Positions 33,785-53,368 of a stretch of 64,000 nt of DNA are shown here, piece by piece (the stretch's first letter is position 1; the number at the start of each line of letters is the position of its first letter). This DNA comes from Egibacteraceae bacterium (lineage in GTDB: Bacteria; Actinomycetota; Nitriliruptoria; Euzebyales; Egibacteraceae). The notes below the pieces were generated by a model, which did no database searches, had not been told where the DNA came from, and worked only from the letters and a program-made list of their open reading frames with translations. Location of the stretch: NCBI GenBank assembly GCA_030446775.1, contig JAUJMQ010000003.1, positions 1 through 64,000 of the forward strand, in the 5' to 3' direction. The position numbers and the translations under genes were made by a program.

Positions 33785-33929
33785 ACTTCTTCCTTCCGGG
33801 GACAGGGGCGGAAGCGGGGCCGTGGTTCGGCGTACCGTTCCCCCCGCCCTGAGCCGTCAACCGAAAGGCCAGCGTGAGCCGCCCGGCGACTGCGAGGCCC
33901 GGCGGAAGCCGCCCGGCGACTGCGGTGCG

Positions 33930-34700
33930 GTGACCCGTCGGCTGCGCCTGGCGTCAACCAACCTGCTGCACGGCATCGACGTCCGCAGCGGGACCGTGGA
34001 CCTGCCCGCGATGCTCGCCGCCCTGGCCGCGCTCGACGTCGACGTGCTCGCGCTGCAGGGGGTCGACCGCGGCCAGCTGCGCTCCGGCGGCACGGACCAG
34101 GCCGCGGCGGCCGCGGCCGCGCTCGGCTGGCAGGCGGCGTTCGCCCCCGCGCTGCTCGGCAGCCCGGACACCCGCTGGACCGCTGTCCGGGGCCATGACC
34201 CGGGAGGCCCCGCCTATGGCGTCGCGGTCGTGTCGCGCCATCCCATCGTCGCCACGACGGTGCGCCGGCTCCCAGGCGGCGGGGACGGCACGCGCGCGTC
34301 CGCGGCCTCACCACAGCGCCCGGGGTGGGACTTCGAGCCCCGGGTGGCACTCAGCGCCGACCTCGACGTCGACGGCCGGCCGCTGCGCGTGACGACCACG
34401 CACCTGTCGTACCTGCCGTGGCGGGGGCTGGCCCAGCTGCGCGTCGCCGCCCGCGCCGCCCGCGGCACCGGGGGGCCGGCCGTGCTCGTCGGCGATCTCA
34501 ACCTGCCGGTGTGGCCGGTGCGGGCGCTGCTGCCGGGATGGCGGCACGCCGGCGGCGCGAAGACCTATCCGGCGTGGGATCCCCGCATGCAGGTCGACCA
34601 GCTGCTCGTGCGCGGCCCGCTCACCGTCGACGACGTCGGCGTGGGGCCGCCGACGACCAGCGACCACCTGCCGCTGCGGGTCGGTCTGTCGCTGGACTAG
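33930..34700 (+). CDS. Endonuclease/exonuclease/phosphatase family protein
   Basis: LRLASTNLLHGIDVRSG, DVDVLALQGVDRGQLRSG, GDLNLPVW, TTSDHLPLRVGL. Confidence 0.9.
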   Translation: MTRRLRLASTNLLHGIDVRSGTVDLPAMLAALAALDVDVLALQGVDRGQLRSGGTDQAAAAAAALGWQAAFAPALLGSPDTRWTAVRGHDPGGPAYGVAVVSRHPIVATTVRRLPGGGDGTRASAASPQRPGWDFEPRVALSADLDVDGRPLRVTTTHLSYLPWRGLAQLRVAARAARGTGGPAVLVGDLNLPVWPVRALLPGWRHAGGAKTYPAWDPRMQVDQLLVRGPLTVDDVGVGPPTTSDHLPLRVGLSLD

Positions 34701-36924: not shown

Positions 36925-37908
36925 ATGCCCACCAACCCTGACGCGCTCGTGACCACCGAGTGGGTCGCCGAGCACCTCGGCGAGCCGGGGATCGTCGTCG
37001 CCGAGGTCGACGAGGACGCCACCGCCTACGCCGCCAACCACATCCCCGGCGCGGTCGGCTTCGACTGGAAGGCCGACTTCCAGGACCCGGTCCGCCGGGC
37101 GTTTCTGGACCGCGAGGGCTTCGCGGCGTTGATGAACGCGCGCGGCATCTCCAACGACGACCACGTCGTGCTGTACGGCGGCAACAACAACTGGTTCGCC
37201 GCGTACGCGTACTGGTACTTCCGCATCTACGGCCACGACAAGGTCAGCCTCATGGACGGCGGCCGCAAGCTGTGGGAGCTGCAGGGCCGCGAGCTGACCG
37301 ACGAGCCGACGAAGGTCGCCTCCAGCTCCGGCTACGTCGCCGGCGAGCCGGACCCCGAGATCCGCGCCAGGCGCGACCAGATCCTCGCCGACTACGTGGG
37401 CGCGCCCGAAGGCAAGGCGCTCGTGGACGTCCGCTCCCCCGCCGAGTTCGCCGGCGAGCTCATCGCGCCGCCGCACCTGCCCAACGAGGGTGCGCAGGTT
37501 CCCGGCCACATCCCGGGGGCGGCCAACGTGCCGTGGGGCAGCGCGGTCAACCCCGACACCGGGCAGTTCCTGCCGACCGAGCGGCTGCGGGAGCTGTACG
37601 CCGCCAAGGGCGTCACACCCGACAAGGATGTCGCCGCCTACTGCCGCATCGGCGAGCGCAGCGCCCACACCTGGTTCGTCCTCCACGAGCTGCTCGGTTA
37701 CGACCGGGTGCGCAACTACGACGGCTCGTGGACGGAGTACGGCTCGCTCGTCGACGTCCCCGTCGAGCTAGGACGCACCTCAAACGCCGGGCGGCTTGGC
37801 GCGACTCCCTTCGGGAGACAGGGGCTAGGGGCGCGGCCGCACCCTCGTCCCGCCGGCCCGAACCACCCGAGCCGCCGTCACGAGCACACCGTCGTGGGGC
37901 GTTCGTGA
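36925..37908 (+). CDS. Sulfurtransferase, tandem rhodanese; native C-terminus overrun by the CTAG repeat
   Basis: VVAEVDEDATAYAANHIPGAVGFDWKADFQDPVRRAF; AAYCRIGERSAHTWFVLHELLGYDRVRNYDGSWTEYGSLVDVPVEL, then repeat-encoded [20 protein letters not shown]... Confidence 0.92.
   Translation: MPTNPDALVTTEWVAEHLGEPGIVVAEVDEDATAYAANHIPGAVGFDWKADFQDPVRRAFLDREGFAALMNARGISNDDHVVLYGGNNNWFAAYAYWYFRIYGHDKVSLMDGGRKLWELQGRELTDEPTKVASSSGYVAGEPDPEIRARRDQILADYVGAPEGKALVDVRSPAEFAGELIAPPHLPNEGAQVPGHIPGAANVPWGSAVNPDTGQFLPTERLRELYAAKGVTPDKDVAAYCRIGERSAHTWFVLHELLGYDRVRNYDGSWTEYGSLVDVPVELGRTSNAGRLGATPFGRQGLGARPHPRPAGPNHPSRRHEHTVVGRS
37768..37828 (+). repeat. CTAG-bounded dispersed repeat, copy A (61 bp)
   Basis: CTAGGACGCACCTCAAACGCCGGGCGGCTTGGCGCGACTCCCTTCGGGAGACAGGGGCTAG; matches 52375..52439 in opposite orientation. 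Confidence 0.92.
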
Positions 37909-51770: not shown

Positions 51771-52427
51771 GTGCCCTCCGCCTCGCGCCCGCTGACCGGA
51801 GTCGTCCTGGCGGGCGGGACCAGCGTGCGGATGGGCACCGACAAGGCGCTGCTCGAGCTGGGTGGGCGCACCTTGGTGTCGCGGGTGGTGACGGCGCTCG
51901 CGGGCTGCTGCACCGAGGTGCTCGTCGCCTCCGGGGACGGGCTGCGCCTGCCAGGGCCGGGGCTGCGGCAGGTCGCCGACGTCACCCCCGGCGCCGGCCC
52001 GCTCGGTGGTCTCGTCGCAGGGCTGGAGGCGGCCGGGGACGACCTCGTCGCGGTCGTCGCCGTCGACATGCCGTTCGCCGAGCCGGCGGTCCTGCGCCTG
52101 CTCGCCGAGCGGTGGACGGGCGAGCCCGCGGTCGTGCCGGTCGCCCGTGGACGCCTCCAGCCGCTGCACGCGGTGTGGGCGCGCGCGGCCGCTCCCGCCC
52201 TGCGCCTGCGCATCGACGCCGGGCTGCGGTCGCCGACGGGGGCGGCGGAGGCGCTCGGTGCCCGTCTCGTCGCTGAGCCCGAGTGGCGCGCGGCCGGTGT
52301 CACCGGCGCCTGGGCCGACGACATCGACGACCCCGCCGGCTGGCAGGCGTTGCTCACGGCTGTGACGGGGGGCGCTAGGGCCTGTCTCCCGAAGGGAGTC
52401 GCTGGACATGAGCCGCCCGGCGTTTGA
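51771..52427 (+). CDS. mobA: Molybdenum cofactor guanylyltransferase
   Basis: GVVLAGGTSVRMGTDKALLELGGRTL; VDMPFAEPAVLRLL; C-terminus runs into repeat copy B. Confidence 0.88.
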   Translation: MPSASRPLTGVVLAGGTSVRMGTDKALLELGGRTLVSRVVTALAGCCTEVLVASGDGLRLPGPGLRQVADVTPGAGPLGGLVAGLEAAGDDLVAVVAVDMPFAEPAVLRLLAERWTGEPAVVPVARGRLQPLHAVWARAAAPALRLRIDAGLRSPTGAAEALGARLVAEPEWRAAGVTGAWADDIDDPAGWQALLTAVTGGARACLPKGVAGHEPPGV

Positions 52428-52439
52428 TGTGCGTCCTAG
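52375..52439 (-). repeat. CTAG-bounded dispersed repeat, copy B (65 bp)
   Basis: Reverse complement CTAGGACGCACATCAAACGCCGGGCGGCTCATGTCCAGCGACTCCCTTCGGGAGACAGGCCCTAG; matches 37768..37828. Confidence 0.92.
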
Positions 52440-53368
52440 GCGCGACGCAGGTGCACGCCGCGCACCGCGTGGTCGGGTCCCTTGGACAGGATCAGGTGGG
52501 CGCGCTGCCGGGTCGGCGCGATGTTCTCGCGCAGGTTGACGGCGTTGATCTCGTGCCAGATCCCACGGGCCGTCTCGCGGGCCTGCTCGTCGGACAGGGC
52601 CGCGTAGCGGTGGAAGTAGGAGCGCTCGTCGGCGAACACGGTGCGCCGCAGCGTGAGGAACCGCTCGACGTACCAGCACTCGATGTCACGCTCGTCGGCG
52701 TCGACGTAGATCGAGAAGTCGAAGTAGTCCGACACGAACGACCGCGGGGGCCTGCCCCGACCGTCGCCGGTCTGCAGGACGTTGAGGCCCTCGACGATGA
52801 CGATGTCGGGCCGGTCGACGATCTGCACCTCGCCGGGCAGGACGTCGTACTCGCGATGGGAGTAGCGGGGGATCTCGACGCGGGGACGCCCTGCCTTGAC
52901 GTCGGCGACCACCTGCAGCAGCCGGCGCAGGTCGTAGCTCTCCGGAAACCCCTTGCGCGACATGAGCCCGCGCTCCTGTAGAACCTTGTTCGGCAGGAGG
53001 AACCCGTCGGTGGTGACGAGGTCGACCGCGGGGTGGTCTGGCCAGCGGGCGAGCAGCGCCTGCAGGATGCGCGCGGTCGTGCTCTTGCCCACCGCGACGC
53101 TGCCGGCGATGCCGATGACGTAGGGAACCGGCGTGGCCGGGTTGCCCAGGAACCGGTCGGTGACCTGTGACAGCGCGCGGGTGGCGTCGACGTACAGCGT
53201 CAGCAGGCGCGACAGCGGCAGGTACACCGCGGCGACCTCGTCCAGCGACACCTGCTCGTTGAGGCCGCGCAGCCGCGCGAGCTCGGACTCCGACAGCGGC
53301 AGCGGCGTCTCGGCACGCAGCTGCGCCCACCCTTCGTTGGTGAACGACACGTACCGCGACAGCGCCAT
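52436..53368 (-). CDS. coaA: Type I pantothenate kinase
   Basis: [62 protein letters not shown]. Confidence 0.96.

Follow-up and report, generated by a model that had tools for sequence, protein, structure and literature searches.

The described elements that most resemble the repeat analysed here are the MITEs of the IS5 family, which are short and present in high copy number, encode no mobility functions and carry 4-bp CTAG flanks and one IS-like terminus. The target that IS5 is reported to duplicate is C(A/T)A(G/A), 4 bp long (PMC11677980). Our repeat, from a 64,000-nucleotide stretch of an Egibacteraceae assembly (GCA_030446775.1, contig JAUJMQ010000003.1, positions 1 to 64,000; hereafter the window), shares the features listed for these MITEs but differs in its length of 61-65 bp (25-61 bp for core units), in a diverged second terminus with no clear inverted repeat, and in having a second class that ends in C(A/G)TG at gene starts, with a Shine-Dalgarno-like motif and minicistrons that appear to be coupled to their neighbours.

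BOX elements of Streptococcus pneumoniae, which give a stop codon to 36 annotated genes (PMC3049150), are likewise modular and intergenic, and the number of modules in tandem varies among them. They appear to differ in sequence, size, composition and anatomy, and the fixed seat on a 4-bp start/stop overlap is a property of the repeat described here. The TAACTGA heptamers of Beggiatoaceae (PMC4679880) are also tandem, lie just upstream of starts, have a patchy distribution and spread by an unknown mechanism, but their unit is 7 bp, target-duplicating insertion has not been described for them and they have no IS partner. REP/BIME sequences with their RAYT transposases are similar in being short, GC-rich, hairpin-bearing, and both dispersed and clustered, whereas our repeat has CTAG flanks on both sides and occurs in genomes in which no RAYT was found. 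The codon-dictated placement of the repeat is the new point of our analysis.

Copies in the window and the genome-wide family

Two CTAG-class copies are present in the window: copy A (37768-37828, + strand, 61 bp), recognized from its sequence, core matches and an alignment of 12 copies, and copy B (52375-52439, - strand, 65 bp). The initial annotation described both as bounded by CTAG and containing a CTCCC-TTC-GGGAG hairpin, and the sequence reads exactly so; 4 bp are missing from the centre of copy A. The consensus for the own genome is CTAG-GACGCACCTCAAACGCCGGGCGGCT-YRTGTCCAACGA-CTCCC-TTC-GGGAG-ACAGGCC-CTAG, and the 12 full copies in this genome differ from one another, with pairwise identities of 82-97%. 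The repeat combines an A module, which reads AGCCGCCCGGCGTYTGAGGTGCACC on the opposite strand and has a core common to all family members, with a hairpin-bearing B module. In copy A (all features on the + strand), the A-side CTAG is at 37768-37771, the A core CACCTCAAACGCCGGGCGGCT at 37776-37796 (with GAGGTG in its reverse complement), the hairpin at 37805-37817 and the B-side terminus, ACAGGGG plus CTAG, at 37818-37828; the reverse complement of this terminus is similar to IS5-family termini, in which CTAG is followed by GGC(C/G)TGTC. Copy B (- strand) has its A-side CTAG at 52436-52439, an A core with one mismatch (CACATC) at 52411-52431, the hairpin at 52386-52398 and the B-side CTAG at 52375-52378. 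CTAG is rare in the window (19 observed vs. 55 expected). Four of the 19 sites are the ends of copies A and B.

Both copies are located at gene 3' ends, as had been noted from the sequence. The TAG in the A-side CTAG of copy B is the stop codon of coaA (52436-53368, -), which encodes a type I pantothenate kinase (NCBIfam TIGR00554, E = 5.6e-137), and a MobA-like NTP transferase gene (51771-52427, +) has a frame that enters copy B and stops at a TGA inside the A module. Copy A is positioned where orthologs of a sulfurtransferase (rhodanese) gene (36925-37908, +) stop; the conserved part of this gene extends to 37767, and the present frame reads through the repeat. The initial annotation missed a third member of the family, a degenerate C(A/G)TG-class repeat at 33874-33933 (+). 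It spans 56 bp from GTGA to GTGA (a 3n-1 length) and has two A-like cores; its frame, read by hand, is an open minicistron whose TGA overlaps the likely GTG start, at 33930, of the endonuclease/phosphatase-like gene immediately 3' of it. Elsewhere in the window there is a cobalamin riboswitch (141-311, +; 90.8 bits).

The proposed genome-wide family was confirmed by a search of the genome. Allowing ≤2 mismatches, TCAAACGCCGGGCGG has 173 matches (74 + 99) in the 2.4-Mb own genome, while the reversed pattern has 5 (3 + 2); allowing ≤1 mismatch, there are 100 matches to CTCAAACGCCGGGCGGCT and 0 to its control. Thirty copies comprise single units and head-to-tail arrays (~57-62 bp), with the A module alone also repeating at a period of ~29 bp; many of the copies and arrays are bounded by CTAG at either end. 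The repeat is short, dispersed, high-copy and without a transposase gene, as expected of a MITE. No Rfam family is matched at the gathering score, and low-threshold matches are those of chance.

Among 61 genomes (own plus relatives), the longer core is confined to the own genome (G000) and two further Egibacteraceae, YX1bin5 (G005) and YX2bin43 (G016); near relatives are without the repeat. These three carriers are 60% (own genome), 85% and 93% complete. The exact 21-mer occurs in no genome of the collection besides the carriers (own-genome records were possibly excluded), and elsewhere in the phylum the longer pattern is no more frequent than expected by chance. In a two-gene tree (HisA and sulfurtransferase), the carriers do not form a single clade, with moderate support. 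Plasmids were considered as carriers and gave matches at chance level only. The density of the repeat in YX2bin43 is uneven, with 5 clusters in the first 800 kb of contig C21 and more in contigs C5 and C3 (~250 kb each); stretches of this genome were partly picked for holding copies, while the 800 kb with 5 clusters were taken from one contig without that choice.

Start and stop codons at the repeat ends

Genes were called with a home-made script using simple codon scores. Two classes of the repeat are present in YX2bin43, one with CTAG ends and the other with C(A/G)TG ends; the remaining ‘other’ clusters are mostly chance matches at a loose threshold (32 control matches vs. 91). In the CTAG class, the A-side frequently supplies the TAG that ends a gene and the B-side frequently the stop of a gene converging on it, with A-sides being coding stops in 15 of 27 cases vs. 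~0.2 expected. Repeats of the C(A/G)TG class have a gene start at one end and the TGA of the preceding gene at the other, and a Shine-Dalgarno-like GAGGTG faces the start of the next gene, 5 bases before it. Of 16 C(A/G)TG clusters, 9 have a coding start on one side paired with a coding stop on the opposite side, vs. 253 of 13,077 RTGA sites (binomial estimate ~1e-11, for copies that are not fully independent events). With respect to ATG vs. GTG, a copy's two flanks show no significant agreement (8, 2, 2, 3).

Most units (38 of 43) are open and have lengths of 3n-1, namely 29 bp (19), 65 bp (18) and 59 bp (1); the exceptions in length are 66 bp (a pair of units from a single array), 27, 28 and 30 bp. 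Based on reading frames, the open 3n-1 units are minicistrons joined to the neighbouring genes through RTGA overlaps. Calls of start and stop codons next to these repeats should not be relied on. In YX2bin43 (L074, C20:430001-450000), one copy of the C(A/G)TG class is bounded at each end by a longer direct repeat, GGCGGTCATGGG, that takes in the initial codons of the gene downstream.

Homologous sites lacking the repeat, which the initial annotation had suggested looking for, were found at hisH-hisA, at coxL-coxM and at the sulfurtransferase stop, using orthologs from other genera rather than sister strains. The hisH-hisA junction of YX2bin43 reads GTGA-GCCGCCCGGCGTCTGAGGTGCAGGC-GTGA, with 25 bp between the tetranucleotides. 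In relatives with readable junctions, hisH leads directly into the hisA start, mostly by a GTGA/ATGA overlap, with short spacers or rearranged neighbourhoods in a few; GTGA is doubled around the insert and single at most of the readable orthologous junctions. Between coxL and coxM there are two repeat units in YX2bin43 and none in relatives. Sulfurtransferase orthologs (e.g., L267, L270) show GTCGAGCGCTAG where the A-side CTAG of copy A is located and stop at CGCTAG or close by; this CTAG lies at the position of the ancestral TAG stop and is read as one side of the target duplication. In the own genome, CTAG and the repeat are found at this position and the CG is lost; because of this 2-bp loss, the frame reads on to 37908. 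The length of coaA is unchanged, with a TAG stop in place of the mostly TGA stops of its relatives.

A probable IS5-family partner and a proposed mechanism

There are 19 matches to PF01609 in YX2bin43, at least nine of equal score, which represent near-identical IS5-family copies. Three of these IS copies, when aligned, are ~1.08 kb long and >99% identical, and two reading frames of the IS match IS5-family models (NF033580). The ends are CTAG followed by GGCGTGTCTGACG, and CCGTCAGACACGCT followed by CTAG, with CTAG flanking both sides in 5 of 5 copies for which both ends are readable (1072-1076 bp). Some of the IS copies, like the repeat, sit between convergent stop codons. The own genome, at 60% completeness, yielded no PF01609 transposase, and the candidate partner IS is thus known solely from the sister genome YX2bin43.

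A second IS terminus, GGACAGGCC followed by CTAG, is close to the repeat end of the own genome, AGACAGGCC followed by CTAG. B-ends of candidate units have ≥8/11 identity (8-9 positions) to the first IS terminus in 12 of 58 cases in YX2bin43 and 6 of 27 in the own genome. Among other CTAG sites, the corresponding counts are 3 of 889 and 1 of 216. The B-end matches are not independent counts because they all come from one family. The A-side terminus is ~5/11 identical to the IS terminus and agrees with the second IS at 11/11 positions in purine/pyrimidine pattern; given the mismatch in sequence, terminal inverted repeats are not established. CTAG fits the IS5 target C(A/T)A(G/A), whereas C(A/G)TG does not (target from PMC11677980). 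The CTAG-flanked IS copies, with a terminus like the 3' end of the repeat, support the earlier suggestion that CTAG is a target-site duplication.

We consider it probable that the repeat, which is very short, is MITE-like and non-autonomous, depending on an IS5-family transposase in trans and preserving codons through a tetranucleotide duplication. For the CTAG class, the best explanation is a MITE-like derivative of an IS5-family IS. A transposase of this family (DDE type, 4-bp stagger), presumably from an IS of the YX2bin43 type, would insert the repeat into CTAG and, probably by the same mechanism, into C(A/G)TG for the second class, duplicating the four target bases. Since TAG can be read from CTAG on either strand and C(A/G)TG contains a start codon, the duplication would return a stop or start to both neighbouring genes, and C(A/G)TG followed by A would hold a TGA as well. 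With these codons restored, insertion at the end of a gene, or where two genes overlap by 4 bp, would do little harm and would therefore tend to survive selection. In the start-codon class, the element would bring GAGGTG to a position five bases before the start, and its open 3n-1 units would act as possibly translated minicistrons sharing an RTGA overlap with each neighbour, by which translational coupling could be kept. The placement at gene junctions may reflect a choice made by the transposase or the survival of tolerated insertions.

A mobile repeat could in this way multiply in a genome that is ~80-87% coding (own gene calls), as the duplicated target rebuilds the codon that is hit. The start-codon class offers a natural test of two questions: whether ribosomes re-initiate across very short overlapping cistrons, and whether insertion sequences choose gene junctions or are only tolerated at them.

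Alternative explanations and similar sequences

A further reading, which we hold tentatively, treats the repeat as a mobile cassette for translation: an element of 25 or 61 bp would invade the 4-bp start/stop overlaps of operons and duplicate the overlap, its own ribosome-binding motif and 3n-1 length making it a relay minicistron that couples both genes. Somewhat more doubtful is a dual origin, with the CTAG class being an IS5-family MITE and the C(A/G)TG class arising through another transposase or through recombination or gene conversion at junctions. Each class does have its own B module, and local spread is weakly indicated in YX2bin43 by rare core variants shared among copies <3 kb apart (4 vs. 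1.4 expected, p = 0.03), with no such excess in the own genome. However, both classes use the same A core and the same four-base logic and occur in mixed-end arrays, and C precedes RTG at 13 of 15 B-sides vs. 60 of 106 native overlaps.

It seems unlikely that the copies serve a regulatory function, as bidirectional terminators, signals for translation or sites of protein binding, for which selection spread or maintained them, with past mobility being incidental. The hairpins, one compensatory pair in the 65-bp units, the orientation of GAGGTG towards the start, the 3n-1 lengths and the abundance of the core in Streptomyces-like genomes would agree with such a function, but occurrence is patchy and relatives manage without the repeat at the same junctions. 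Furthermore, there is no T-tract, the folding energies of single copies are unremarkable, and no selection at the peptide level was seen in the minicistron, where changes are distributed over codon positions 1, 2 and 3 without bias (37, 51 and 56).

We regard as very improbable a REP-type element mobilized via single-stranded DNA by a RAYT (Y1 HUH) transposase, even though the repeat is short, hairpin-bearing, mostly extragenic and present in arrays. Y1 transposases (RAYT/IS200-IS605, PF01797) were not detected in any of the three carriers, while control genomes gave matches, and both the tetranucleotide on the two flanks and the IS5-like terminus argue against this route; a search for IS91-type Y2 transposases gave no match and was uninformative, as the controls were silent too. 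The initial annotation had left the choice between a MITE and a REP-like family, and between an IS and a RAYT with matching ends: the MITE assignment is supported, given the IS5-family IS of YX2bin43 with its CTAG flanks and one matching terminus, and the REP and RAYT options are not. Chance similarity or an assembly artefact, conceivable for draft metagenome-assembled genomes, is refuted by the excess over the reversed control, the sharing of the repeat by independent assemblies and the differences among copies, and has a negligible probability.

Outside the carriers, CTCAAACGCCGGACGG is present in up to 41 copies in Streptomyces-like genomes (G082, G160, G179, G422 and others of family f23), which we take to be Streptomyces from their size and sequence; it was not found printed in the relevant literature searched. 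Like our repeat, it forms dispersed intergenic copies, up to dozens per genome, and it shares 15 of 16 core letters, but it has other flanks, no CTAG/CRTG ends and a variable distance to genes. The resemblance may reflect homology or convergence. A shorter 15-mer of the core is also abundant in these genomes and is not called the same element because its flanks differ. Viral contigs were rejected as carriers, since the eight with the 18-mer (50-57% GC) have it in different contexts and do not represent this element. In viral contigs L122-L126 and L129 (50-57% GC), CTCAAACGCCGGGCGGCT occurs in a similar CCTCAAAC...GGGG...TTTGA-like context.
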